Virus record (IMG/VR): IMGVR_UViG_3300035070_003426
Coordinates: 1 to 35,878 of that record
Origin: a virus
Strand: one strand, 5' to 3'
Length of the DNA: 35,878 nucleotides
Under the pieces are notes generated by a model. That model was not told where the DNA came from. It saw nothing but the letters and a program-made list of their open reading frames with translations, and ran no database searches. The translations under genes were made by a program, and so were the position numbers. Positions 6,235 through 35,118 of the stretch are shown in pieces (position 1 is the first letter of the stretch; every line of letters begins with the position of its first letter).

Positions 6235-6699
6235 TCATCCAGTAAAGTATGATACTCCGACAGCAAAAATAATAGCCGCGATTACAAAAATACCACCGCC
6301 TAACACCCAAGCCATAAGCAGTTCCTTACGTTCTTCGGCGGCATAAACCATTTCTTTACGTTGTTTGCGCATTTTTGATTCTATAGATACAATTTCATCC
6401 CAGGCGGATGGCCCGTAATACAGAGAAATATACTGCCGTAATTCCTCACGCATTTCCTCTGCCTTCTTTTTATGCGCCCATGCTTCCAAGGCATCTTGCT
6501 CGATATTAGAAGCAAACACTTTTTTAAACAGTGGTGGATTTTTTGCTTTTTGGTGTGCAAAATCCAAGTCAGACTTGGCCTTAGCCCATTGCCCAAGTTG
6601 TGTGCCCATATCAGATATTTCTTTACCCGTTTCAATGGCTTTTTTAATACCATTAAAGGCAGTAGTTGCCAAACCAATGGCAGTTACTGGATCAATCAT
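6235..6699 (-). CDS. Tail-anchored membrane protein, only minus-strand gene
   Basis: This encodes 154 residues on the minus strand with a strong AGGAG site (revcomp of about 6704-6711) before its ATG. It starts MIDPVTAIGLATTAFNGIKKAIETGKEI, has a Lys/Glu-rich helical centre with NPPLFKKVF, and ends in one long hydrophobic segment (about residues 128-152) with a short tail. I recall proteins of this layout as conserved unknowns in T4-like marine phages. The helical body and single C-terminal membrane anchor suggest a peripheral membrane or virion-associated role, which is inference. No strong promoter was found for it. Confidence 0.7.
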   Translation of the reverse strand: MIDPVTAIGLATTAFNGIKKAIETGKEISDMGTQLGQWAKAKSDLDFAHQKAKNPPLFKKVFASNIEQDALEAWAHKKKAEEMREELRQYISLYYGPSAWDEIVSIESKMRKQRKEMVYAAEERKELLMAWVLGGGIFVIAAIIFAVGVSYFTG

Positions 6700-6801
6700 T
6701 ACCCTCTCCTAGTAATTAACTAGTTTCTCTCATTATTATTCTCTCAATTGTATTTAGTAGTAGTTAATTTAAGTTAACTGCTCTTATTTAAAAATTAACT
6801 A

Positions 6802-6830
6802 TTGACAATCAAAATTAGTTATGCTATATT
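6802..6830 (+). promoter_or_regulatory. Sigma70-type promoter
   Basis: TTGACA (6802-6807), 17 bp, TATATT (6825-6830). It lies in the 165-bp gap between the divergent genes ending at 6699 and starting at 6865 and drives the latter. No CGAATCA word is present in the spacer. Confidence 0.75.
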
Positions 6831-6864
6831 ATTGGCAATAATCAAATTTACTTAGGAGCGTAAA

Positions 6865-7257
6865 ATGTCTATGCACTTAGTTGGTCCCTATATGACCACA
6901 ACAAAATACAATAGCAAAAAATCTAATCGTAAGAAGACTGTAAAGCAATTGAAAGCAGAAGCAGAACACGAAAAGTTTATGCGCAAAATGGGAGTGAGTA
7001 CGGAACAACTTGAAGGCAAATTGTATGACAGGTATGGTAAGCGCAAGCATGTAAATCATATTCCCGATTATACAACAAATAAACCAAATATTAAACTAAG
7101 TAATGAGATTGCATCACACGGTCCTGCAAAAGAATCTCATACCTATAGTGGTGAACGACAATTACTTGGTATTGCCACGATGCATAAATCTAATATGGTT
7201 CCCATCTTCGCCGATAAAAAAGAAGATGCAAAAGATATTGCAAGTATGCGCAGATGA
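6865..7257 (+). CDS. Conserved marine-phage-type protein of unknown function
   Basis: This encodes 130 residues. The N-terminus HLVGPYMTTTKYN, a basic helical segment (KKTVKQLKAEAEHEKF) and the C-terminal DIASMRR ending are features I recall from a conserved unknown in marine T4-like phages. The protein is strongly basic and might bind nucleic acid, but no domain is identifiable. A TAGGAG ribosome site (6852-6857) precedes the ATG and a consensus promoter lies 35 nt upstream. It overlaps the next small gene as ATGA. Confidence 0.65.
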   Translation: MSMHLVGPYMTTTKYNSKKSNRKKTVKQLKAEAEHEKFMRKMGVSTEQLEGKLYDRYGKRKHVNHIPDYTTNKPNIKLSNEIASHGPAKESHTYSGERQLLGIATMHKSNMVPIFADKKEDAKDIASMRR

Positions 7258-7421
7258 ATAATACATGTGAAGATTGTCGCATTGCAGTAACAACTGATGG
7301 CATTGAGATTGATAGTAGTCAAGGTGATATAATTTCAGAAGGTATTTTACTGGGTGTTATTGTTACTGTGATTGCTGTATTATACGTTGGGAAGAAATGG
7401 ATAGATGGGAAATTTAGATGA
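7254..7421 (+). CDS. Small single-TM protein
   Basis: This frame encodes 55 residues from an ATGA overlap and ends at an ATGA overlap with the next gene. The N-terminus has a C-x-x-C pair (TCEDCR). A single hydrophobic segment (GILLGVIVTVIAVLYVG) is followed by a basic tail (KKWIDGKFR), which predicts an N-out, C-in membrane protein. No family is recognised. Confidence 0.55.
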   Translation: MNNTCEDCRIAVTTDGIEIDSSQGDIISEGILLGVIVTVIAVLYVGKKWIDGKFR

Positions 7422-7609
7422 TTAGATGGTATGATTATCTGGTGGCATTTCTTGCTGCCGATTTTATTTTTATGAACATTAGATTATTAATTACTGGAAA
7501 TATTCTTATGTCAGCAGTAGGTGGGCTGGGAATATATTTTATATTGAATCTATGGAATACTAGTTATACTGAATTTAGAATCAATCAAGAAACAAAGAAC
7601 AAAAAATGA
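7418..7609 (+). CDS. Small membrane protein with two TM segments
   Basis: This encodes 63 residues with two hydrophobic stretches (YLVAFLAADFIFMNIRLLI and MSAVGGLGIYFILNLW) and a charged C-terminal tail. It is joined by 4-nt overlaps to the genes on both sides. Function unknown. Confidence 0.55.
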   Translation: MIRWYDYLVAFLAADFIFMNIRLLITGNILMSAVGGLGIYFILNLWNTSYTEFRINQETKNKK

Positions 7610-7779
7610 AATATGCAATTAAATTGGAACTCGCCGAAGATGATTGGATTTACATTACTGAAGATACGCCAGGATGTACTAATCTAATCCCTCTTCTTTT
7701 TGACACAAAGCACGATGCGAAACGTATTGCATCTACTTGGAAACCAAAAAATACTAAGGTAGTAGAATATAATGACTGA
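7606..7779 (+). CDS. Small soluble protein of unknown function
   Basis: This frame encodes 57 residues starting in an ATGA overlap with the upstream membrane protein. The pattern MKYAIKLELAEDDWIYITE, then PLLFDTKHDAKRIASTW and VVEYND, resembles small beta-alpha proteins that recur in marine phages. It overlaps the next gene by 8 nt. No function can be assigned. Confidence 0.6.
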   Translation: MKYAIKLELAEDDWIYITEDTPGCTNLIPLLFDTKHDAKRIASTWKPKNTKVVEYND

Positions 7780-8197
7780 TAATATTATTAATTTTAGTGA
7801 CATTGTTAAATCTAAGAATAAGAAAATTCTAGAAGAAGATTTTTGGAAGAATTTAGACGAGATCATAAGTGAAACATATGACTTTACGAGTGGTCAAAAA
7901 GGTACACAGGATATTCCATGGCCATCATGTGAACCAGATGAAATGGAATATATTCTGGATAATTCTCCTATTGTGCGTATAACAAATTTTGTAATTACTG
8001 ATTTGTATGCAGCAGGTGATGATCCCAGTGAACAAGAACTTTCAGATGATATGATTATTATTGCAATGTTATATGAATCTGCAATACTTGAAAGTAAAAC
8101 AAAATCACATAAAAAAAGTAGTGGAGATTTAAATGCATTTTATCGACACTTTGATGCAATTAAAAAATCTATGAGCAAGGAAGAATTTTCACTATGA
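7772..8197 (+). CDS. Protein of unknown function
   Basis: This encodes 141 residues, acidic and helical, with no recognisable motif. It overlaps the preceding gene by 8 nt and the GreA-like gene by 4 nt (ATGA), so it is coupled to both. The middle contains a hydrophobic helix (MIIIAMLYESAIL) that looks like a buried core helix, not a membrane segment. Confidence 0.6.
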   Translation: MTDNIINFSDIVKSKNKKILEEDFWKNLDEIISETYDFTSGQKGTQDIPWPSCEPDEMEYILDNSPIVRITNFVITDLYAAGDDPSEQELSDDMIIIAMLYESAILESKTKSHKKSSGDLNAFYRHFDAIKKSMSKEEFSL

Positions 8198-8742: not shown

Positions 8743-8771
8743 TTGACATTATAAACGAATCACTTTATAAA
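8743..8771 (+). promoter_or_regulatory. CGAATCA-family promoter (endolysin)
   Basis: TTGACA (8743-8748), 17 bp, TATAAA (8766-8771). The spacer holds CGAATCAC at 8756-8763. It drives the SleB-type hydrolase gene. Confidence 0.8.
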
Positions 8772-23957: not shown

Positions 23958-23986
23958 TTGACATCTTAACCGAATCACTATATAAA
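23958..23986 (+). promoter_or_regulatory. CGAATCA-family promoter
   Basis: TTGACA (23958-23963), 17 bp, TATAAA (23981-23986); spacer word CCGAATCACT. It drives the pair of genes at 24014 and 24157. Confidence 0.82.
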
Positions 23987-24013
23987 GAGTGTATAAGTTG
24001 AGAGGGAATAATT

Positions 24014-24160
24014 ATGTTTACTGTTGAATATGGCTACTACAACTATCCCAAAAAGACAAAAGAATTCAAAACGTATGAAAGTGCAAAGAAGTTCTTCTTT
24101 TATATTGGGAAGCGTAACGGTGTAAAGCGAGTAAATCTCATGGTAGGAGATGTAGAATGA
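24014..24160 (+). CDS. Small basic protein of unknown function
   Basis: This frame encodes 48 residues (MFTVEYGYYNYPKKTKEF onwards). An AGAGGGAATA ribosome site and a CGAATCA promoter stand directly upstream, and its stop overlaps the next start as ATGA. The pattern (beta strand, T-Y-E-S-A-K-K-F-F helix, basic strand) is typical of tiny phage beta-alpha-beta proteins. Confidence 0.55.
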   Translation: MFTVEYGYYNYPKKTKEFKTYESAKKFFFYIGKRNGVKRVNLMVGDVE

Positions 24161-24489
24161 AAATTATTAATATTATTAATGATACTAGTGTTAAAGTCAC
24201 GGGTACTGCGCTACAAGGATTTATTAATACCACATATGATGATATTGTTGCTGCGTTTGGTGAGCCTACTTATACTCATGGTGACAAGACCAATGTTGAG
24301 TGGAACTTGGAATTTGTAATTAAATTACAAGATGCTCCTGGAAGTTTTATAGAAGAAGTCTGTGTAGCAACAATTTATGATTGGAAACTCCCTTCAACTC
24401 CGTATGGTTTATATAATTGGCATATTGGTGGTTTTTCCAATGAAGCAGTTGAATGTGTTTATTCATCATTACAACAAAAAGTTCTATAG
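24157..24489 (+). CDS. Small phage protein of unknown function
   Basis: This encodes 110 residues. The segments LQGFINTTYDDIVAAFGEPTY, KTNVEWNLEF and VATIYDWKLPSTPYG, ending WHIGGFSNEA, look like a recurrent small phage fold that I recall without known function. It is coupled by ATGA to the preceding gene. Confidence 0.65.
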   Translation: MKIINIINDTSVKVTGTALQGFINTTYDDIVAAFGEPTYTHGDKTNVEWNLEFVIKLQDAPGSFIEEVCVATIYDWKLPSTPYGLYNWHIGGFSNEAVECVYSSLQQKVL

Positions 24490-24572: not shown

Positions 24573-24593
24573 TAGTCCTCTTCGCAAACTTGG

Positions 24594-24621
24594 CCCGGCT
24601 ACTTCGGTAGTCGGGTTCTTT
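24594..24621 (+). terminator. Rho-independent terminator with UUCG tetraloop
   Basis: Stem CCCGGCTAC / GTAGTCGGG (24594-24602 with 24607-24615, one G-U pair) closed by the stable C(UUCG)G tetraloop, then TTCTTTTTATT. It separates the early-type unit ending at 24489 from the Coq4-like/PutA unit. Confidence 0.88.
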
Positions 24622-24629
24622 TTATTCCG

Positions 24630-24637
24630 ACTAAATA
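24630..24637 (+). promoter_or_regulatory. T4-late-like octamer in leaderless geometry (Coq4-like/PutA unit)
   Basis: ACTAAATA (24630-24637) followed by the same 5 nt (TTATC) and ATG at 24643 as at 23100-23115. No other promoter is visible between the terminator and this start, and no ribosome site precedes the ATG. Confidence 0.5.
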
Positions 24638-24642
24638 TTATC

Positions 24643-25185
24643 ATGTTACACTACCGTGATTGGAATCCAGGAATAGAAAACGGCAATGACACTCTCATTT
24701 CTGTATTGAATACTTTACCTGGCAGTGACTCAATAGACATAAGTTGGTATGTAAAAATAATAGAAAATCCCAAATCTCCATTTAGTCTTCCGGGCGCAAT
24801 ATGTTTAGAATCGCACGATTGCATTCATGCATTATTGGGCAGAGGATTATTAAATCAGGATGAGGCATTTGTTATAGGTTATACTATGGGTAACGCAACG
24901 TCATTGAAAAATTGGCATGTAGCATTGTATAAATACTATGCATCGAATATATTTCCAAAAATATATCGTTTTGGCGAAAGAGAATTAATAGCGTTTGATT
25001 TAGGCATTGTCTATGGCAAAACACGCAGGACTAAGAATATACATCAAGTGAATTTTGACCTTTATAAAAATAAAACAATGGGTGAAATTCGTGCGATATT
25101 TGACATAAATTTAGATATACTTCGCCACAATAGATATATTGAAAGGACTTTATTTAAAAAAAGTAAGGCTAGTAAACGGTTATGA
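24643..25185 (+). CDS. Coq4-like protein (ubiquinone-biosynthesis family motif)
   Basis: This 180-residue protein contains H58-D-C-I-H62 followed by exactly 11 residues and E74, the HDxxH-(x)11-E metal motif established for Coq4. The neighbourhood LLGRGLLNQDEAFVIGYTMG fits the long helices of that family. Coq4 binds a quinone or precursor and is needed for ubiquinone synthesis. It overlaps putA by 4 nt (ATGA), so the two are translationally coupled. Because PutA passes electrons to membrane quinone, a joint quinone-related role is attractive but inferred. It starts 5 nt after a late-type octamer without a ribosome site. Confidence 0.6.
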   Translation: MLHYRDWNPGIENGNDTLISVLNTLPGSDSIDISWYVKIIENPKSPFSLPGAICLESHDCIHALLGRGLLNQDEAFVIGYTMGNATSLKNWHVALYKYYASNIFPKIYRFGERELIAFDLGIVYGKTRRTKNIHQVNFDLYKNKTMGEIRAIFDINLDILRHNRYIERTLFKKSKASKRL

Positions 25186-28025
25186 GAATTTATCAACATA
25201 ATATATATTATAGAATGGATGAAATAGAATTAATTCCAAAATTAATGCTGGCAGCAAGGCTTACAAAACAAGACAGAGCCGAAATATTAGAAACATCGAA
25301 TGTAATTAATTCTGCATTTAATGAATCTAGTATGATACATCAACTTATGACTGCATATGAATTATCAGGCAATGAAGGAATTGCGTTAATGACACTATGC
25401 GAATGTTTACTAAGAACACCGGATAAAAAAACACAAGATAAATTAATTAAAGAAAAACTAACAAATGCTGATTGGAACCTTCTGTCACAAAATAGTTTCT
25501 ATGCAACTTTAAGTGGTAAAGTATTAACTCAAGCCCAGAGTTTTGCAGCATATAATAATTTAATTAGTAGATTGGGATGGCCCACTGTTCGTAAGATTGT
25601 TAAAGAATCTGTTAAACGGATGGGCAACATATTTGTAATGGGCGAGACTATTGAAGAGGCAAAAAAAGCAATAAATGAGTCATACACATATTCAGTTGAT
25701 ATGTTGGGCGAAGCAGCAACAAATTGGCCAGATGCAAATGATTATTATGAAAAGTATATACAAGCGGCTGCGTGGTTTGAAGATAGCATTAGTATTAAAC
25801 TAAGTGCCATTCACCCAAGATATGAGTTGAAAAATCATGCTGATGTATTACTTCATTTAGTACCAAAATTGGCAGCAATTGCCAGGCTATGCGAAGAGAA
25901 AAATACCACAATGTTTATTGATGCTGAGGAAGCATCACGTTTAGATCTAAGTATAATGGTATTGGAAGAATTATTATTAACACATAAATTTAAAAAAAAT
26001 ACGATTGGGTTCGCAGTTCAAGCATATCAAAAACGTGCGTTCTGGGCAATAGAAACATTAGAACATATTGCAGAAGAATCCAATACATCAATATGTGTCC
26101 GTTTAGTTAAAGGGGCATATTGGGATACAGAAATAAAGATAGCACAACAAGAAGGCTTACACTATCCTGTATTCTCACGAAAGGAATATACCGACATAAG
26201 TTATCTAGCATGTGCAAGAAAGATTATGTTATCAGAGTATATCAAGCCTGCCTATGCCACGCACAATCCATTCACTGTGGCAGCCATATACTTTTACCAC
26301 GAAACCCTAGGAGGTGAATTTGAGTTTCAAAAGTTATATGGTATGGGTGATGGATTATTTGACCATCTACAGAATACATACAACACAAGTATTAGAGTAT
26401 ATGCGCCTGTAGGTGAATACAAAGATTTACTTGCATATCTTGTTCGTAGATTATTAGAAAATGGAGCAAACACTAGTTTTGTTTTTAACCAGCAATTGAC
26501 GGATCCATTTAAAGAAGCAAAAAAAGACAAAGAAAAATTACCAACGTATGAAGATTTATATCCCAATCGTAAGAATAGTAAAGGGTATGATTTAACTGAT
26601 CCTGCATCTATTGTACATCTAGTGGGAAGACCAAGTTATGAATTTATTGTACCTGAACAATTATCAGTAAATGACAGTATTTCAGTATTAGATGAAGGTA
26701 AAAAATTATGGAGTAAAACTACTTTTGAACAAAGAAAGAAAGTAGTTCTTGATTATGCAAACCATTTAGAAGATCATATGGAACAAGCAGCGAGTAATTT
26801 AGTTACACATGCAAATAAAACATATTTTAATGCTATTGGTGAAGTTCGTGAAGCCATAGATTTTATTAGATATTATACAGAACAAGCAGAAAAATTATAT
26901 AATAACGGCGATACTTTAAGTTATACGGGTGAAATAAATATGACCACATATCAATCTCACGGCGTGTGGATGGTTATTGCACCGTGGAATTTCCCACTCG
27001 CAATTTTTGTAGGGCCAATTATAGCAGCATTATTAACAGGCAATACAGTACTAGCAAAACCTGCCCCCCAGACAATTAGAGTTGCAGAGACTGCTGTTAG
27101 TTGTATGCTTGAATGTGGAATACCAGATTATGCTATTAGATTATGCAATCCAGATCCCAAAGAAGCAGAGATTGCAGTGGCAGATGAACGAATTAGAGGC
27201 ATAACATTTACTGGTTCACATAAAACTGCAAAGCGTATTCAACGTGTCTTAGCGGACCGTGAGGGACCTATTATACCGTTTATTGCAGAGACTGGTGGTA
27301 TTAATTGTATGATTGCAGATAGTACTTGTTTACCTGAACAATTAATTAAGGATGCAATACTTGGTGCATTTGATAGTGCTGGTCAGCGTTGTAGTGCAAC
27401 AAGATTTTTATTCATACAAAAAGATAATTCCAATGATATTTTAAAGATGCTGGGAAATGCTATTAAAGTTGTACAGATGGGGTTCAGTGATGATTTAAAT
27501 ACTGATGTTACCCGTGTTATTGATGGTGATGCATTTAGAAGTATACAAAATAGGATATCAGTATTAGAAGAAAATGAAATATTAATAGCGACAAGATCAA
27601 GAAATGGGGCAGAATTGCCCTCTTTAACAATTCCACCAAGTGCGTATTTAGTATCAGATTATAAAAAGTACTTTGACAAAGAAATATTCGGACCTCTATT
27701 GCATGTTTACGAATATGAAGTTGATGAACTAGATAGTATTATAAACTATATCAATGAAACCAAGTTTGGTTTAACAATGAGTATTCATTCTAGAATAGCA
27801 TCGTTTTATGATGGGATTATTAATAATGTCAATGTTGGTAATATTTATATTAATAGAGATCAAATTGGAGCAATTGTAGAAACGCAGCCATTTGGTGGTG
27901 TAGGATTATCAGGTACTGGTCCTAAGGCTGGGGGGCCGGATTATTTAAAATCATATGTTTGGGAAAAGCATGTGAGTATTAATACTACTGCTATTGGAGG
28001 CAATACTGTATTATTATCAAAATGA
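25182..28025 (+). CDS. putA: Bifunctional proline dehydrogenase / P5C dehydrogenase (PutA)
   Basis: This 947-residue protein is a complete two-domain PutA, oxidising proline to glutamate and giving electrons to quinone (via FAD) and NAD. The proline dehydrogenase barrel spans about residues 160-470, with VRLVKGAYWDTEIK (306-319), ATHNPFTVA and the proline-carboxylate arginines R422-R423 in RRLLENGANTSF. The aldehyde dehydrogenase domain covers about 490-935: WNFPLAIFVGP, FTGSHKTAKRI, E703 in AETGG and C737 in GQRCSATR, 34 residues apart as expected. There is no N-terminal DNA-binding domain, so it is not an autoregulating trifunctional PutA. The frame is intact. It overlaps the Coq4-like gene by 4 nt. 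Confidence 0.93.
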   Translation: MRIYQHNIYYRMDEIELIPKLMLAARLTKQDRAEILETSNVINSAFNESSMIHQLMTAYELSGNEGIALMTLCECLLRTPDKKTQDKLIKEKLTNADWNLLSQNSFYATLSGKVLTQAQSFAAYNNLISRLGWPTVRKIVKESVKRMGNIFVMGETIEEAKKAINESYTYSVDMLGEAATNWPDANDYYEKYIQAAAWFEDSISIKLSAIHPRYELKNHADVLLHLVPKLAAIARLCEEKNTTMFIDAEEASRLDLSIMVLEELLLTHKFKKNTIGFAVQAYQKRAFWAIETLEHIAEESNTSICVRLVKGAYWDTEIKIAQQEGLHYPVFSRKEYTDISYLACARKIMLSEYIKPAYATHNPFTVAAIYFYHETLGGEFEFQKLYGMGDGLFDHLQNTYNTSIRVYAPVGEYKDLLAYLVRRLLENGANTSFVFNQQLTDPFKEAKKDKEKLPTYEDLYPNRKNSKGYDLTDPASIVHLVGRPSYEFIVPEQLSVNDSISVLDEGKKLWSKTTFEQRKKVVLDYANHLEDHMEQAASNLVTHANKTYFNAIGEVREAIDFIRYYTEQAEKLYNNGDTLSYTGEINMTTYQSHGVWMVIAPWNFPLAIFVGPIIAALLTGNTVLAKPAPQTIRVAETAVSCMLECGIPDYAIRLCNPDPKEAEIAVADERIRGITFTGSHKTAKRIQRVLADREGPIIPFIAETGGINCMIADSTCLPEQLIKDAILGAFDSAGQRCSATRFLFIQKDNSNDILKMLGNAIKVVQMGFSDDLNTDVTRVIDGDAFRSIQNRISVLEENEILIATRSRNGAELPSLTIPPSAYLVSDYKKYFDKEIFGPLLHVYEYEVDELDSIINYINETKFGLTMSIHSRIASFYDGIINNVNVGNIYINRDQIGAIVETQPFGGVGLSGTGPKAGGPDYLKSYVWEKHVSINTTAIGGNTVLLSK

Positions 28026-29258: not shown

Positions 29259-29923
29259 CCGATACTGTAATTACCGCAAATAGTTTTACAACATTTAAGA
29301 CAATGTTTAGTACAACATTAATACAAGCAGAAGCATCATTGTATTCAGAAATTTTTGATGCAGAAATTGATTTTGTTTGGTGCACAACTGATTTAGCAAT
29401 GGGAAATGCTGCATTTCTAAAAGTAAAATTCTTCTTAGAAGAAGTATTACATCAAAGTATTTTTACACATAAGTCAGCACCAATTAAATTAGATGAAGTA
29501 GGTAATAAGATAGTTATGTTACCATATGTTCCCACAAGTGATATTATTGCTATGACACTACACGCTAAACTTAATTCAATAGCAGATGGGCATATAGATA
29601 TTTTAAGTGTGAAGATTACAAGTAAGTTTGAAAATCCCACAATGAGTTATACATATGCAGATGAAGATTATCCAGGATTGCCTGGCATTGAAACATGGAT
29701 CGGACAAAAAGAATATTATTATGATACACCATGGTGGTTTAGAAACTCTCCTGAAACACAAGATTATGAGGTAAATGAAGAAACAGACTTGACAAACCCT
29801 CCAGAATATGATAATGTATTAGATGAAATACAACAAGTAATTCTAGGTGAATTAAAACTTGTTGATGATCCAGGTGAGGTTATAAAAATACATGATTGGC
29901 AGCCAAAAATCGTCACGGATTGA
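29255..29923 (+). CDS. Protein of unknown function
   Basis: This encodes 222 residues. No motif is decisive; a helical N-terminal part (FTTFKTMFSTTLIQAEASLY) precedes a beta-rich middle and an acidic Pro/Tyr-rich C-terminus (YYYDTPWWFRNSPETQDYEV). It begins at an ATGA overlap and the following gene overlaps it by 32 nt. Confidence 0.55.
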   Translation: MTDTVITANSFTTFKTMFSTTLIQAEASLYSEIFDAEIDFVWCTTDLAMGNAAFLKVKFFLEEVLHQSIFTHKSAPIKLDEVGNKIVMLPYVPTSDIIAMTLHAKLNSIADGHIDILSVKITSKFENPTMSYTYADEDYPGLPGIETWIGQKEYYYDTPWWFRNSPETQDYEVNEETDLTNPPEYDNVLDEIQQVILGELKLVDDPGEVIKIHDWQPKIVTD

Positions 29924-30443
29924 TTCTTTAAAAGATCAATATGGTAGAGTTGTGTATAACAGGCATGATTTATACGAGATGCTATACAACCAAGAAGATA
30001 TTGAACCTGTAAAAAGTGTCGAATGGCATGAGGATTTTGAAAAATATAATACTGCTATTCAAAGTAATTATTTAAATATTAATCCTCTAACACCGATTGA
30101 AATAATAACTACAGAACTGGTGGAGTTTGATAAAAATAACCAATCAAGATGGTTCTTACCAGATGAATATAAAACAATTGATGTAACAGATTATGTAAAA
30201 AAATTATGTTACACAGAACAGGAACTAATAAGGGTCGATGAAGAATTAACAGAATTCTCAAAACGTGATATGATTATGCTATTACGATATATGATTTATT
30301 TAGTGGATTATATGCGAGAAAATAAAATAGTATGGGGCGTTGGCCGTGGAAGTAGTGTAGCAAGTTATGTGTTATACTTGATCGGAATACATAAGATAAA
30401 TAGTATTCACTATGATCTAGACTGGAAAGAGTTCCTTAGATAA
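29892..30443 (+). CDS. Stand-alone DnaE (Pol III alpha) palm-like protein
   Basis: This 183-residue protein ends with VWGVGRGSSVASYVLYLIGI and HYDLDWKEFLR, matching the C-family DNA polymerase palm segment that starts at the G-R-G-S motif (GRGS at residues 151-154) and runs to the F-x-x-F-L-N motif. The catalytic aspartates that follow in DnaE are absent because the protein stops there. It is far too short for a polymerase (DnaE is about 1160 residues). I recall similar short proteins in marine T4-like phages, so it may be a conserved derivative with another role and not debris. The start overlaps the previous gene by 32 nt. Confidence 0.65.
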   Translation: MIGSQKSSRIDSLKDQYGRVVYNRHDLYEMLYNQEDIEPVKSVEWHEDFEKYNTAIQSNYLNINPLTPIEIITTELVEFDKNNQSRWFLPDEYKTIDVTDYVKKLCYTEQELIRVDEELTEFSKRDMIMLLRYMIYLVDYMRENKIVWGVGRGSSVASYVLYLIGIHKINSIHYDLDWKEFLR

Positions 30444-32552: not shown

Positions 32553-32629
32553 GGTTCCTTAGCTCAGCTGGATAGAGCGCCACTCTTCTAAAGTGGATGT
32601 CATAGGTTCGAATCCTATAGGGACCGCCA
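32553..32629 (+). tRNA. tRNA-Arg (anticodon TCT)
   Basis: A 77-nt cloverleaf with acceptor GGTTCCT/AGGGACC, D arm GCTC/GAGC, anticodon loop CTTCTAA giving TCT, T-loop TTCGAAT and an encoded CCA. It reads AGA, a common arginine codon in AT-rich phages. Confidence 0.95.
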
Positions 32630-32646
32630 AAAATGAAAAGACTGAA

Positions 32647-32946
32647 ATGAAAAACTTTATTATTAATAACTGGAATCTAGTGATGGATCATAATACGAAC
32701 CCACTACGAAATATCCCTTCATTGCCTGTCCGTCATATGTTAATGCAAGTTCTTGCTTGGATGTGGGTAAGCGTATTTACTATTGCAAGTGGCACTTGGG
32801 CATATGCAGGAGCCAATGTAGTTGTACATACTGTATTGATTACTGGTATCGTTTTAACAGTCGCAACATTTGAAACCGCCAAACGCAAGCCAAATGTACT
32901 TACTAAATTGCAAGGTCTACGCGGTCGCGGCGGCGAACACGAATAA
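32647..32946 (+). CDS. Membrane protein with two TM segments
   Basis: This encodes 99 residues from ATG 32647; in-frame codons further upstream lie inside the tRNA and are excluded. PLRNIPSLPVRHMLMQVLAWMW leads into two hydrophobic segments (LAWMWVSVFTIASGTW and VVHTVLITGIVLTVATF), followed by a basic tail. I recall similar conserved unknowns in marine phages. No clear ribosome site is seen. Confidence 0.65.
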   Translation: MKNFIINNWNLVMDHNTNPLRNIPSLPVRHMLMQVLAWMWVSVFTIASGTWAYAGANVVVHTVLITGIVLTVATFETAKRKPNVLTKLQGLRGRGGEHE

Positions 32947-32972
32947 AATAAAAATTATTAAGGAACAAAAGT

Positions 32973-33116
32973 ATGAGTGATTTTAACGGACTATTTCTAT
33001 CATTTTTATTAATTATTTTTCTAATGGTGGGTATTCCTATCTTGTCGGCAGCAATCGCTTGGCCAGATAATTGTTCCCAATCTATTATCATTCCATGCTT
33101 GGGATTAGGAGATTAA
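32973..33116 (+). CDS. Tiny single-TM protein
   Basis: This frame encodes 47 residues with an AAGGAA ribosome site. A single hydrophobic helix (LFLSFLLIIFLMVGIPILSA) is followed by a short Cys-containing tail. The stop is 2 nt before the next start. Confidence 0.5.
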   Translation: MSDFNGLFLSFLLIIFLMVGIPILSAAIAWPDNCSQSIIIPCLGLGD

Positions 33117-33118
33117 AA

Positions 33119-33379
33119 ATGAGCGAAGATAAATTTGAAATTCATCGTCCTGGAAAGATGCTAGATTATCTTGAAAGCCAAGTAACTGAATGGGCATTTG
33201 AGTTAATTCAAGAACACTTTGGGGTGGATTCACCTGATGAACTATCTCGGGAACAACTGGATGAAGTTATCGAACAATGGGACGAAATGTTAGAAATGTC
33301 CGGCGGTGACTTCTTAGCATTGGGATTACGCAATGCTATTGGTCAGTGGGAAAATGAACACGACGAATATATAATTTAA
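33119..33379 (+). CDS. Small acidic helical protein of unknown function
   Basis: This encodes 86 residues from ATG 33119 with a TAGGAG site (33106-33111). It is acidic and helical (SPDELSREQLDEVIEQWDEM). In-frame codons from 33071 overlap the previous gene and were not used. A tRNA-Leu gene follows 7 nt later. Confidence 0.55.
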   Translation: MSEDKFEIHRPGKMLDYLESQVTEWAFELIQEHFGVDSPDELSREQLDEVIEQWDEMLEMSGGDFLALGLRNAIGQWENEHDEYII

Positions 33380-33386
33380 CAGTTAT

Positions 33387-33472
33387 GCTCGTATGGCGGA
33401 ATCGGTAGACGCGCCAGACTTAAAATCTGTTGCCCTTGAGGCGTCCCGGTTCAAGTCCGGGTACGAGTACCA
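33387..33472 (+). tRNA. tRNA-Leu (anticodon TAA)
   Basis: An 86-nt class II tRNA with acceptor GCTCGTA/TACGAGT, anticodon loop CTTAAAA (TAA), a long variable arm TGCCCTTGAGGCG, T-loop TTCAAGT and encoded CCA. It reads UUA, the preferred leucine codon here. Confidence 0.95.
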
Positions 33473-33495
33473 AATATTATTAAGGAGAATACAAT

Positions 33496-33675
33496 ATGAC
33501 AGAGGGACCATTTAAAAATGCATTTGATGCTGATACTACTGGTGTCATTCGTAGAGAAATTGTTACATATCGTATGCGAGATGGTGTAATGGTCAAAGAG
33601 GTCGCGTATCGTGATTACTATGCAAGTGGTGACTATCATGATTCACAGGCTGCTACTCCTTTAGTAGAAAGATAA
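33496..33675 (+). CDS. Small protein of unknown function
   Basis: This frame encodes 59 residues with a strong AAGGAG ribosome site. It reads as a small beta protein (VIRREIVTYRMRDGVMVKEV) with a disordered tail. It lies between two tRNA genes. Confidence 0.6.
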   Translation: MTEGPFKNAFDADTTGVIRREIVTYRMRDGVMVKEVAYRDYYASGDYHDSQAATPLVER

Positions 33676-33683
33676 GATACAAA

Positions 33684-33758
33684 GCGGGTATCGTATAGTG
33701 GTTATTACGGTAGGTTTCCAACCTTTAGACAGGAGTTCGATTCTCCTTACCCGCTCCA
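33684..33758 (+). tRNA. tRNA-Gly (anticodon TCC)
   Basis: A 75-nt tRNA with acceptor GCGGGTA/TACCCGC, anticodon loop TTTCCAA (TCC), T arm AGGAG/CTCCT around TTCGATT, and encoded CCA. The anticodon stem has one T-T mismatch at the second pair. Confidence 0.9.
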
Positions 33759-33766
33759 GAAATAAT

Positions 33767-33804
33767 GCTCCTGTAGCTCAGTTGGTTAGAGCCACGACGC
33801 ATAC
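33767..33804 (+). pseudogene. 5' half of a split tRNA gene
   Basis: GCTCCTG (acceptor 5' strand), TA, a perfect D arm GCTC/GAGC with AGTTGGTTA loop and the start of an anticodon arm (CACGACGCAT), after which the tRNA breaks off. The matching acceptor 3' strand CGGGAGC plus A-CCA is found only at 34385-34395. The insertion between contains a complete CAT tRNA and an HNH gene. A former CAT anticodon is possible but unproven. Confidence 0.7.
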
Positions 33805-33899
33805 ACGGAAATTTGGGAGATTGGTGTAATAGTAACACGAGCCGCTCATAACGGTTGAGTCAGGGGAGCGTAACCTCTATCTCCTACCAAAATTTCTGT
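33805..33899. repeat. 10-bp inverted repeat exactly flanking the CAT tRNA
   Basis: ACGGAAATTT (33805-33814) abuts the first tRNA base and AAATTTCTGT (33890-33899) abuts its CCA. The two arms pair over 10 bp with one G-U, stacking on the acceptor stem. This might be a processing signal in the precursor or part of the mobile element's boundary. Confidence 0.65.
33815..33889 (+). tRNA. tRNA with CAT anticodon (Met or Ile2), odd T-loop
   Basis: A 75-nt cloverleaf with acceptor GGGAGAT/ATCTCCT, D stem GTGT/ACAC, anticodon stem AGCCG/CGGTT with loop CTCATAA (CAT), T stem AGGGG/CCTCT and encoded CCA. The T-loop is AGCGTAA, not the usual TTCRANY, which is unusual for an elongator tRNA. It may be Met, initiator Met or lysidine-modified Ile. 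Confidence 0.8.
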
Positions 33900-33924
33900 T
33901 ACGGACTGATTAATGGTTCAAAAA

Positions 33925-33932
33925 GATAAATA
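33925..33932 (+). promoter_or_regulatory. T4-late-like octamer in leaderless geometry (HNH gene)
   Basis: GATAAATA followed by exactly 5 nt (AAAGT) and the ATG at 33938. There is no ribosome site. This is the third case of this spacing in the window. Confidence 0.5.
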
Positions 33933-33937
33933 AAAGT

Positions 33938-34378
33938 ATGAACCAATGTATCACATGTAATAAAGAAACAACGAATCCTATATTTTGCAGCAGAAGTTGT
34001 TCTGCAAAATATAATAATAAAGGAAACCGTAGACACGGTAATGCACCAGGAGAATGTACACACTGTGGAAAACCTAAATTAAGTGCTAAACATAAGTATT
34101 GTTCTCGACAGTGTTCAGCAGAATCTAGAAAAAAAGACCCGAAATTAGTTGCTGCGGGTAATGCAGCGAGACAAGCAAGATATAGAGCAAAATATGGATA
34201 CAACAGATCACATGCTCCCAATGCAAACAAAGAAAAGATAACACAAATATATGAAAATTGCCCAGTAGGATACGAAGTAGATCATATTATACCGTTATCA
34301 AAAGGTGGATTGCATCATGAAGATAATTTGCAATACCTTACTATAGCAGAAAATAGGTCTAAAGGAAACCGTGTTTAG
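33938..34378 (+). CDS. HNH homing endonuclease
   Basis: This 146-residue protein has two CxxC zinc-knuckle pairs (CITCNKE and FCSRSC; CTHCGK and YCSRQC) and a C-terminal HNH nuclease domain: YEVDHIIPLSKGGLHHEDNLQ followed by NRSKGNR, with the D-H general base pair, N and the last conserved N. Such free-standing HNH endonucleases cut a target site and spread by repair. It sits inside the interrupted tRNA, with its TAG stop directly against the tRNA 3' remnant. It is AT-rich with a late-type octamer and no ribosome site. Confidence 0.9.
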   Translation: MNQCITCNKETTNPIFCSRSCSAKYNNKGNRRHGNAPGECTHCGKPKLSAKHKYCSRQCSAESRKKDPKLVAAGNAARQARYRAKYGYNRSHAPNANKEKITQIYENCPVGYEVDHIIPLSKGGLHHEDNLQYLTIAENRSKGNRV

Positions 34379-34395
34379 TCCTACCGGGAGCACCA
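34379..34395 (+). pseudogene. 3' end of the split tRNA gene
   Basis: TCCTAC (T-stem 3' strand), CGGGAGC (acceptor 3' strand) and ACCA. CGGGAGC pairs with the GCTCCTG at 33767-33773 over all 7 bp (one G-U). The anticodon 3' strand, variable loop and T-stem 5' strand are missing. Confidence 0.7.
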
Positions 34396-34402
34396 ACAAA
34401 TT

Positions 34403-34493
34403 GGAAGTGAGACTTGGTAGTCAGAGGAGTCTTATATGCTCTTTGCGCCAGATTAGCGCCTTTGAGGTGGTTCGAATCCACCCACTTCTACCA
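34403..34493 (+). tRNA. Atypical class II tRNA, apparent anticodon TAT
   Basis: A 91-nt tRNA with acceptor GGAAGTG/CACTTCT, T arm GGTGG-TTCGAAT-CCACC and encoded CCA. Between them lie three hairpins: GAC-TTGGTA-GTC, GGAGT-CTTATAT-GCTCT and GCGC-CAGATTA-GCGC. Reading the second as the anticodon arm gives TAT (Ile, AUA) on a scaffold with a long variable arm, normally restricted to Leu, Ser and Tyr. The isotype is therefore uncertain. Confidence 0.7.
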
Positions 34494-34502
34494 AATACAT
34501 GT

Positions 34503-34586
34503 GGGCGACAGGCCGCAAGGTGTGGCAGGGGACTGTAACTCCCTCGCGGAGACGCACGCCTGGTTCGATTCCAGGGTCGCCCACCA
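34503..34586 (+). tRNA. tRNA-Tyr (anticodon GTA)
   Basis: An 84-nt class II tRNA with acceptor GGGCGAC/GTCGCCC, anticodon stem GGGGA/TCCCT with loop CTGTAAC (GTA), a variable arm, T arm CCTGG-TTCGATT-CCAGG and encoded CCA. Confidence 0.93.
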
Positions 34587-34605
34587 AATTAAATTAAATA
34601 AAAGG

Positions 34606-34634
34606 TTGACATTCTAAACGAATCACTGTATAAA
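34606..34634 (+). promoter_or_regulatory. CGAATCA-family promoter
   Basis: TTGACA (34606-34611), 17 bp, TATAAA (34629-34634); spacer word ACGAATCACT. It drives the gene at 34667 and probably the three tRNAs behind it. Confidence 0.83.
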
Positions 34635-34666
34635 GTAAGAGTAAGTTAACAAAGAAGGCATACAAC

Positions 34667-34864
34667 ATGAACGACATGATTAACGACTTGTTTGAAATTG
34701 TAGAAGACTTGAAAGATATCGAAACCTTTGGCAGTGATTCCCCAGCGTTTGAGAATATCCTTATCAAGTGGGAAGCACGTTTGATTGACGCACAAGATGA
34801 AGCAGAGCGTCAATATGAAATGTTTGCAGGAGTGGCTAAAATCCTCGACAAACGTTATGAATAG
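34667..34864 (+). CDS. Small acidic helical protein of unknown function
   Basis: This encodes 65 residues, acidic and helical (MINDLFEIVEDLKDIE), with AAGAAGG upstream and a CGAATCA promoter. The tRNA-Asp gene starts 6 nt after its stop, so it may share a transcript with tRNA-Asp, -Glu and -Ser. Confidence 0.6.
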   Translation: MNDMINDLFEIVEDLKDIETFGSDSPAFENILIKWEARLIDAQDEAERQYEMFAGVAKILDKRYE

Positions 34865-34870
34865 TATGAA

Positions 34871-34945
34871 GGACTGTTAGTTTATCGGTTAGAATTCTCG
34901 CCTGTCACGCGAGGGAGACGGGTTCGATTCCCGTACAGTCCGCCA
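34871..34945 (+). tRNA. tRNA-Asp (anticodon GTC)
   Basis: A 75-nt tRNA: acceptor GGACTGT/ACAGTCC, anticodon arm TCGC-CTGTCAC-GCGA (GTC), T arm CGGG-TTCGATT-CCCG and encoded CCA. Confidence 0.95.
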
Positions 34946-34949
34946 TTAT

Positions 34950-35024
34950 GTCCCGTTCGTCTATCGGTTAGGACGTCAGGTTTTCAACCTGAAAAGAGGG
35001 GTTCGATTCCCCTACGGGATACCA
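34950..35024 (+). tRNA. tRNA-Glu (anticodon TTC)
   Basis: A 75-nt tRNA: acceptor GTCCCGT/ACGGGAT, anticodon arm CAGG-TTTTCAA-CCTG (TTC), T arm GGGG-TTCGATT-CCCC and encoded CCA. Four nt separate it from tRNA-Asp. Confidence 0.95.
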
Positions 35025-35030
35025 CAATAC

Positions 35031-35118
35031 GGACAGGTGGCTGAGTGGCCGAAAGCAGCGGATTACTAATCCGCCGAACCGAGAGGTTCCGTGGGTTCGA
35101 ATCCCACCCTGTCTGCCA
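35031..35118 (+). tRNA. tRNA-Ser with unusual anticodon ACT
   Basis: An 88-nt class II tRNA: acceptor GGACAGG/CCTGTCT, anticodon stem GCGGA/TCCGC with loop TTACTAA, giving ACT, a variable arm AACCGAGAGGTT, T arm GTGGG-TTCGAAT-CCCAC and encoded CCA. Bacterial and phage serine tRNAs for AGY normally have GCT; an A at position 34 is rare. Confidence 0.9.

Follow-up and report, generated by a model that had tools for sequence, protein, structure and literature searches.

PutA and a Coq4-like protein encoded together in a large bacterial virus: a possible link through quinones

The window analysed here, the whole of a 35,878-nt stretch of DNA from a large (jumbo-type) bacterial virus (IMG/VR record IMGVR_UViG_3300035070_003426), encodes PutA, the bifunctional enzyme of proline oxidation (P0002), in one unit with a small protein (P0001) that is a remote relative of Coq4. 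The unit is tentatively read as an auxiliary metabolic operon in which PutA and the Coq4-like protein are linked through quinone-dependent respiration, a reading for which doubt slightly outweighs belief. Because a second, unrelated virus group also has a proline-burning enzyme near a Coq4-like protein, the data suggest that viruses tap the host respiratory chain in a previously undescribed way.

The unit and its PutA

The initial annotation placed two open reading frames (ORFs) in the unit, at 24643-25185 and 25182-28025, joined by an ATGA overlap, and both the limits and the overlap are exact. The features of the unit are as follows, PRODH being proline dehydrogenase and P5C 1-pyrroline-5-carboxylate.

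24592..24617, + strand: intrinsic terminator with an 11-pair stem, TTCG loop and T-rich tail, dividing the unit from upstream genes
24630..24637, + strand: late-type promoter-like motif ACTAAATA with a TAAATA core, 5 nt 5' of the start codon; putative function
24643..25185, + strand: Coq4-like protein P0001, 180 aa, remote homologue of the C-terminal half of Coq4
24814..24864, + strand: HDxxH-(x)11-E motif, putative metal site (H58, D59, H62, E74)
25182..25185, + strand: ATGA stop/start overlap from P0001 to P0002, read from the sequence and kept in L007, L009, L010, L011 and L013
25182..28025, + strand: type-A PutA P0002, 947 aa, bifunctional PRODH/P5C dehydrogenase
25653..26483, + strand: PRODH domain, residues 158-434 (PF01619; K310, R422, R423, E426)
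26670..27974, + strand: P5C dehydrogenase domain, residues 497-931 (PF00171; E703, C737, anchor loop)

The claim of a full-length PutA was borne out by profile searches, in which P0002 scored 999 bits against the NCBIfam PutA equivalog NF008869 (cut-off 747) and matched both enzyme families in one chain (Pfam Pro_dh 270 bits, Aldedh 278 bits), together with the PutA helical domain (Pro_dh-DNA_bdg, 77 bits). Residues 10-946 align to the Bradyrhizobium PutA 3haz. The catalytic residues K310, R422, R423 and E426 of PRODH and E703 and C737 of P5C dehydrogenase are present, as had been stated for R422, R423, E703 and C737, and all six are invariant across seven phage PutAs, as is D724. The last aligns to D779, the tunnel aspartate of the Bradyrhizobium enzyme. 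The P5C anchor loop was also found (SGTGPKAGG), and neither Pfam nor NCBIfam gave a match to a ribbon-helix-helix DNA-binding domain. Judged by sequence, P0002 is a complete type-A PutA without the ribbon-helix-helix domain, and it is predicted to be an active enzyme.

The phage PutA shares with 3haz the full architecture of PRODH and P5C dehydrogenase and the catalytic and anchor-loop residues, but it falls short of the median bacterial length by ~100 residues and is only ~40% identical. It differs also in being borne by a virus, in its coupling to a Coq4-like gene and in lying on a separate phage branch. Because the phage PutAs form one deep separate branch, at most ~41% identical to their best bacterial matches, PutA is on this evidence an old phage gene. 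The ratio of non-synonymous to synonymous substitution (dN/dS) of 0.08-0.14 indicates purifying selection. Over codons ~50-400 the PutA DNA is practically identical to that of one related contig (L011) with flanks at 83-87%, the mark of either recent recombination or an assembly mosaic.

A phage protein family related to Coq4

P0001 had been likened to Coq4 on account of the motif HDxxH-(x)11-E, which is indeed present in exact form (H58-D59-x-x-H62-(x)11-E74). This is the metal motif of human COQ4 and of Alr8543, and in Alr8543 the site binds metal and hydrophobic helices bind lipid (PMC9774615). COQ4 has been reported to be the C1 oxidative decarboxylase of CoQ precursors and also a complex organiser (PMC11495197).

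Searches with the single protein were empty. P0001 had no match in Pfam (Coq4, PF05019, included), PHROGs or NCBIfam, tblastn against GenBank phages at E 0.01 returned nothing, PF05019 found no match in six viral records either, and a profile of the five close relatives had no match among Protein Data Bank (PDB) sequences. A relaxed search gave a chance-level match to cyanophage S-TIM5 (E 0.6), which has the same motif, and this led to a family that was then sought over viral contigs with the degenerate DNA pattern HDxxHx5Gx4DEAx3G. Among the matches listed all but a few were true members, and the family so defined has more than 100 members (viral loci L017-L135) in size classes of ~107 aa (the cyanophage type), ~148 aa and ~180-217 aa. 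P0001 has matches in the long and middle size classes, with E values between 1e-26 and 1e-53; a further profile scan of viral contigs for its own family returned only the five known loci. Members occur in cyanophages such as S-TIM5 (UTS51936.1) and in many other viral contigs, there is no Pfam or PHROG entry for them, and a gene of this type was found in 0 of 299 sampled proteobacterial genomes. This Coq4-motif family of phage proteins (107-217 aa) is large and undescribed. An alignment of 41 phage members (A4) has 12 invariant positions, among them H58, D59, H62, G68, D73, E74, A75, G79, G83 and P105, so that the metal-ligand positions are invariant throughout. The Coq4-like gene has a dN/dS of 0.04-0.06, again purifying selection.

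The relation to Coq4 became visible at the level of the family. In one relative (L087) Coq4 was the sole Pfam match, covering the motif and the sequence C-terminal to it and below threshold (12.6 bits, E 0.086; gathering cut-off 22.9 bits). When S-TIM5 was added to the phage family and the resulting profile (A3) was searched against PDB sequences, the best match was 3msq, which is annotated as a putative ubiquinone biosynthesis protein, at E 0.11 and in an alignment spanning the HD motif to a C-terminal EIRxxLG segment. When the family profile was compared by hhalign with 20 Pfam-Coq4-positive proteins of the sphingomonad family the probability was 96.2% (E 2.3e-9, 103 columns), whereas a PutA profile used as negative control gave 0.2%. 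An AlphaFold model of P0001 built from a deep alignment reached a pLDDT of 91.7 and a pTM of 0.90 (pLDDT 37 from just five near-identical sequences), and the only credible Foldseek matches of this model in the PDB were both chains of 6E12, with probabilities of 0.92 and 0.85 and all others at or below 0.06. 6E12 is the Nostoc Coq4 homologue Alr8543. A fold search of BFVD gave nothing credible.

Because the sub-threshold Pfam match, the PDB profile match, hhalign and the fold search agree, P0001 is regarded, on sequence and model, as a remote, phage-specific homologue of the metal-binding C-terminal half of Coq4 and not as a member of PF05019. With Coq4 (PF05019; 6E12; 3msq) it has in common the HDxxH-(x)11-E motif, the helical fold of the C-terminal half and a C-terminal IR..(L/F)xI segment, but it has no Pfam-level match and no match to the N-terminal half, and its sequence type is confined to phages as judged from the 299 proteobacterial genomes sampled. 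The identification in the initial annotation thus stands as remote homology by profile, PDB sequence and fold, with structural similarity in the predicted model, and falls as membership of the Pfam family and for all but the C-terminal half. Nor could the kinship be read from the one sequence: it was the family profile and the structure model that revealed it.

Distribution of the pairing and signals for expression

The same PutA locus was found in at least seven viral contigs, and across the set of related viral loci (L001-L015) the metabolic genes sit inside the virus genome, are conserved and, by dN/dS, are under selection. In five of these contigs (L007, L009, L010, L011 and L013) the two genes still overlap by ATGA, and the terminator and a TAAATA just 5' of the start codon are kept as well, with the Coq4-like protein at 83-97% identity.

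A second lineage emerged when a PutA profile was run against the records of other phages with Coq4-like genes. Its PRODH is a separate, monofunctional enzyme, above the cut-off for Pfam Pro_dh and closest among solved structures to 4h6q. A scan for this enzyme gave 34 viral contigs with a Coq4-like gene in 12, always within ~17 kb and in five cases within 2 kb, the distance ranging from 0.7 to ~17 kb. The genes of L257 run from PRODH through a Tat-signal protein and the Coq4-like gene to a PnuC-like membrane protein, so that in the stretch 6425-7959 the Coq4-like gene is flanked by the Tat-signal and PnuC-like proteins. The two lineages are distinct: clamp loaders of the PRODH phages, where comparable, score just 18-21 bits against that of the window phage, and the Coq4-like proteins of these phages group in a clade apart from the PutA-linked ones. 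The same quinone-linked reaction is expected of this PRODH as of the window PutA, again with a Coq4-like gene nearby, but the enzyme belongs to another family and is accompanied by a separate generic aldehyde dehydrogenase (ALDH) and an unrelated clamp loader. The ALDHs of this lineage were considered as P5C dehydrogenases and are not counted as evidence; they lie far below the P5C dehydrogenase cut-offs and resemble generic ALDHs.

As a comparator, 27 contigs of at least 25 kb with a ribonucleotide reductase motif were examined, and neither a Coq4-like gene (0/27) nor PRODH (0/27) was found in them. Of the 19 PRODH contigs that reach 25 kb, 11 have a Coq4-like gene, which against the comparators gives a Fisher p of 6e-6 with relatedness ignored; since the PRODH phages are related, this value was set aside as independent evidence. 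Second-lineage phages with a Coq4-like gene and no PRODH were also found (G064, G065, G069 and G071).

The unit had been described as insulated by a strong terminator and opened by a late-type octamer. The first point was confirmed: the 11 pairs and UUCG loop of 24592-24617 fold with a dG of -17.9 kcal/mol (z -2.9), and the same stem stands 5' of the gene in L007, L009, L010, L011 and L013. The second held for the core of the motif and not for the octamer as a whole. The copy at the unit (ACTAAATA) is only 6/8 identical to TATAAATA, and in the window the intact octamer shows no enrichment, with 6 copies against 8.5 expected. In a 146-kb relative (G002), however, the TAAATA core stands 5' of 25 of the 97 long ORFs, where 3.1 would be expected, and those 25 include genes for the terminase, the tail and the virion. 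The core is also kept in relatives (AATAAATA in L011). The gap of 5 nt between motif and ATG would leave almost no leader. An early-type promoter, TTGACA-N8-CGAATCACT(A/T/G)TATAAAG, occurs in seven copies in the window (at 8743, 21607, 22167, 22680, 23958, 34606 and 35849) and seven in G002. Late expression of the unit is likely, its timing being predicted from these signals.

Two further features lie upstream.

23958..23987, + strand: early-type promoter repeat TTGACA..CGAATCACTATATAAAG, lying 5' of the terminator and belonging to another promoter class than that of the unit
24157..24489, + strand: 110-aa ORF before the terminator, resembling by eye ORFs in L011, L014 and L012

The counterparts of the 110-aa ORF, matched by eye, are at 6979-7311 in L011, 5852-6175 in L014 and 7028-7363 in L012, and this neighbour also stands 5' of PutA where the Coq4-like gene is absent. 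Elsewhere in the window there is a stand-alone 183-aa piece with a DNA polymerase III alpha NTPase domain (29892-30443; a similar ORF is at 12917-13483 in L011) and a cluster of eight tRNA genes (32553-35118).

A proposed role and its alternatives

The oxidation of proline by PutA, with electrons passed to membrane quinone and glutamate and NADH as products, is established enzymology. In the infected cell PutA would convert host proline to glutamate by two successive oxidations, the first delivering two electrons to membrane quinone and the second yielding NADH, and the co-translated Coq4-like protein would act on, or bind, quinones or their prenylated precursors. It could thereby sustain or modify the quinone pool while PutA or PRODH loads it, and quinone-dependent respiration would thus be supported. 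The terminator would cut the unit off from early transcription, and the late-type promoter probably drives it. That quinone is what PutA and the Coq4-like protein have in common is our inference. A stronger form of the proposal, in which a minimal phage Coq4-type protein that modifies or binds quinones was joined independently to proline oxidation in two lineages and powers infection through a virus-tuned quinone pool, is considered unlikely.

Several observations weigh against a quinone-linked operon. Two deeper PutA phages at 68% and 65% identity, G003 (a 342-kb record) and G004, whose upstream genes are similar, have no Coq4-like gene, so that the adjacency expected of related phages was found, with its ATGA, in five contigs and is missing in these two. 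Core relatives with clamp loaders 59-60% identical to that of the window phage (G062 and G072) have the Coq4-like gene and no PRODH in the 49 and 76 kb available, and most phages with Coq4-like genes (the 148-aa and 107-aa types, G062 and G072) show no PRODH. The co-occurrence amounts to two lineages and not to 11 independent events, as the PRODH phages are related. On the side of the protein, homology to Coq4 is limited to the ~103 columns on the C-terminal side with the N-terminal half unmatched, and the Foldseek match to 6E12 has an E of 0.18 and a TM of 0.43. Because most Coq4-like phages are without proline genes, the Coq4-like protein is not a dedicated partner of PutA and has a role that goes beyond it. 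The fixed two-protein module, as first proposed, and a role in quinone synthesis are left unproven because P0001 is not a Pfam Coq4, the pairing has gaps and the Coq4-like family is widespread without proline genes.

Chief among the alternatives is a reading of PutA and the Coq4-like protein as separately useful genes for host takeover gathered in one late accessory region, the Coq4-like protein having no specific link to proline oxidation; it might then do something general, for example bind or sequester lipid, or act on host Coq4 or respiration. This is possible, if on balance somewhat improbable. It would accommodate the Coq4-like genes of phages that lack PRODH, including cyanophages such as S-TIM5, the two PutA phages that lack a Coq4-like gene and the variable distance to PRODH in the second lineage. 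It accords less well with the exact ATGA coupling kept across divergent relatives and with co-occurrence in two lineages of unrelated clamp loaders against none of the 27 comparators.

A further alternative is that PutA serves mainly to supply glutamate, as nitrogen and carbon for the proteins and nucleotides made late in infection, or else to deplete proline, with electron flow to quinone incidental. The pathway does end in glutamate and NADH, and the S-adenosylmethionine synthetase and IMP dehydrogenase/GMP reductase-like protein encoded by the same phage (window 12496-13581 and 10431-11576) imply that it steers biosynthesis too. The step shared by the two lineages, however, is the quinone-reducing one, the second lineage having PRODH with only a generic ALDH, and a Coq4-like gene is near in both, which makes this explanation quite improbable. 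Cellular contamination, with PutA a chance host fragment in a viral assembly or a decaying captured gene, is extremely improbable and was rejected: PutA is common in proteobacteria and most of the GenBank phage records that match it are contaminated or look cellular, but the locus recurs in multiple viral contigs, its PutAs form their own branch, the frames are intact and under purifying selection, and the gene is flanked by phage genes and phage-type promoters.

Auxiliary metabolic genes are already known in viruses. No report of a phage PutA or a phage Coq4, nor of a viral combination of PutA with a Coq4-like protein, was found in the open-access literature searched, absence from which is not proof. 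The nearest precedent is a phage ubiG from Baltic Sea viromes (PMC9301287), likewise a virus-borne gene pointing to ubiquinone metabolism, but a methyltransferase of another pathway step with no proline gene. If the link between PutA and the Coq4-like protein is real, viruses would feed electrons from an amino acid straight into the respiratory chain, and the modelling of host energy use during infection in aquatic systems would change. The phage family, at 107-217 aa, offers a compact system in which the chemistry of Coq4, still under debate, can be tested; if the family does represent the smallest working Coq4 metal core, it could reveal that chemistry.

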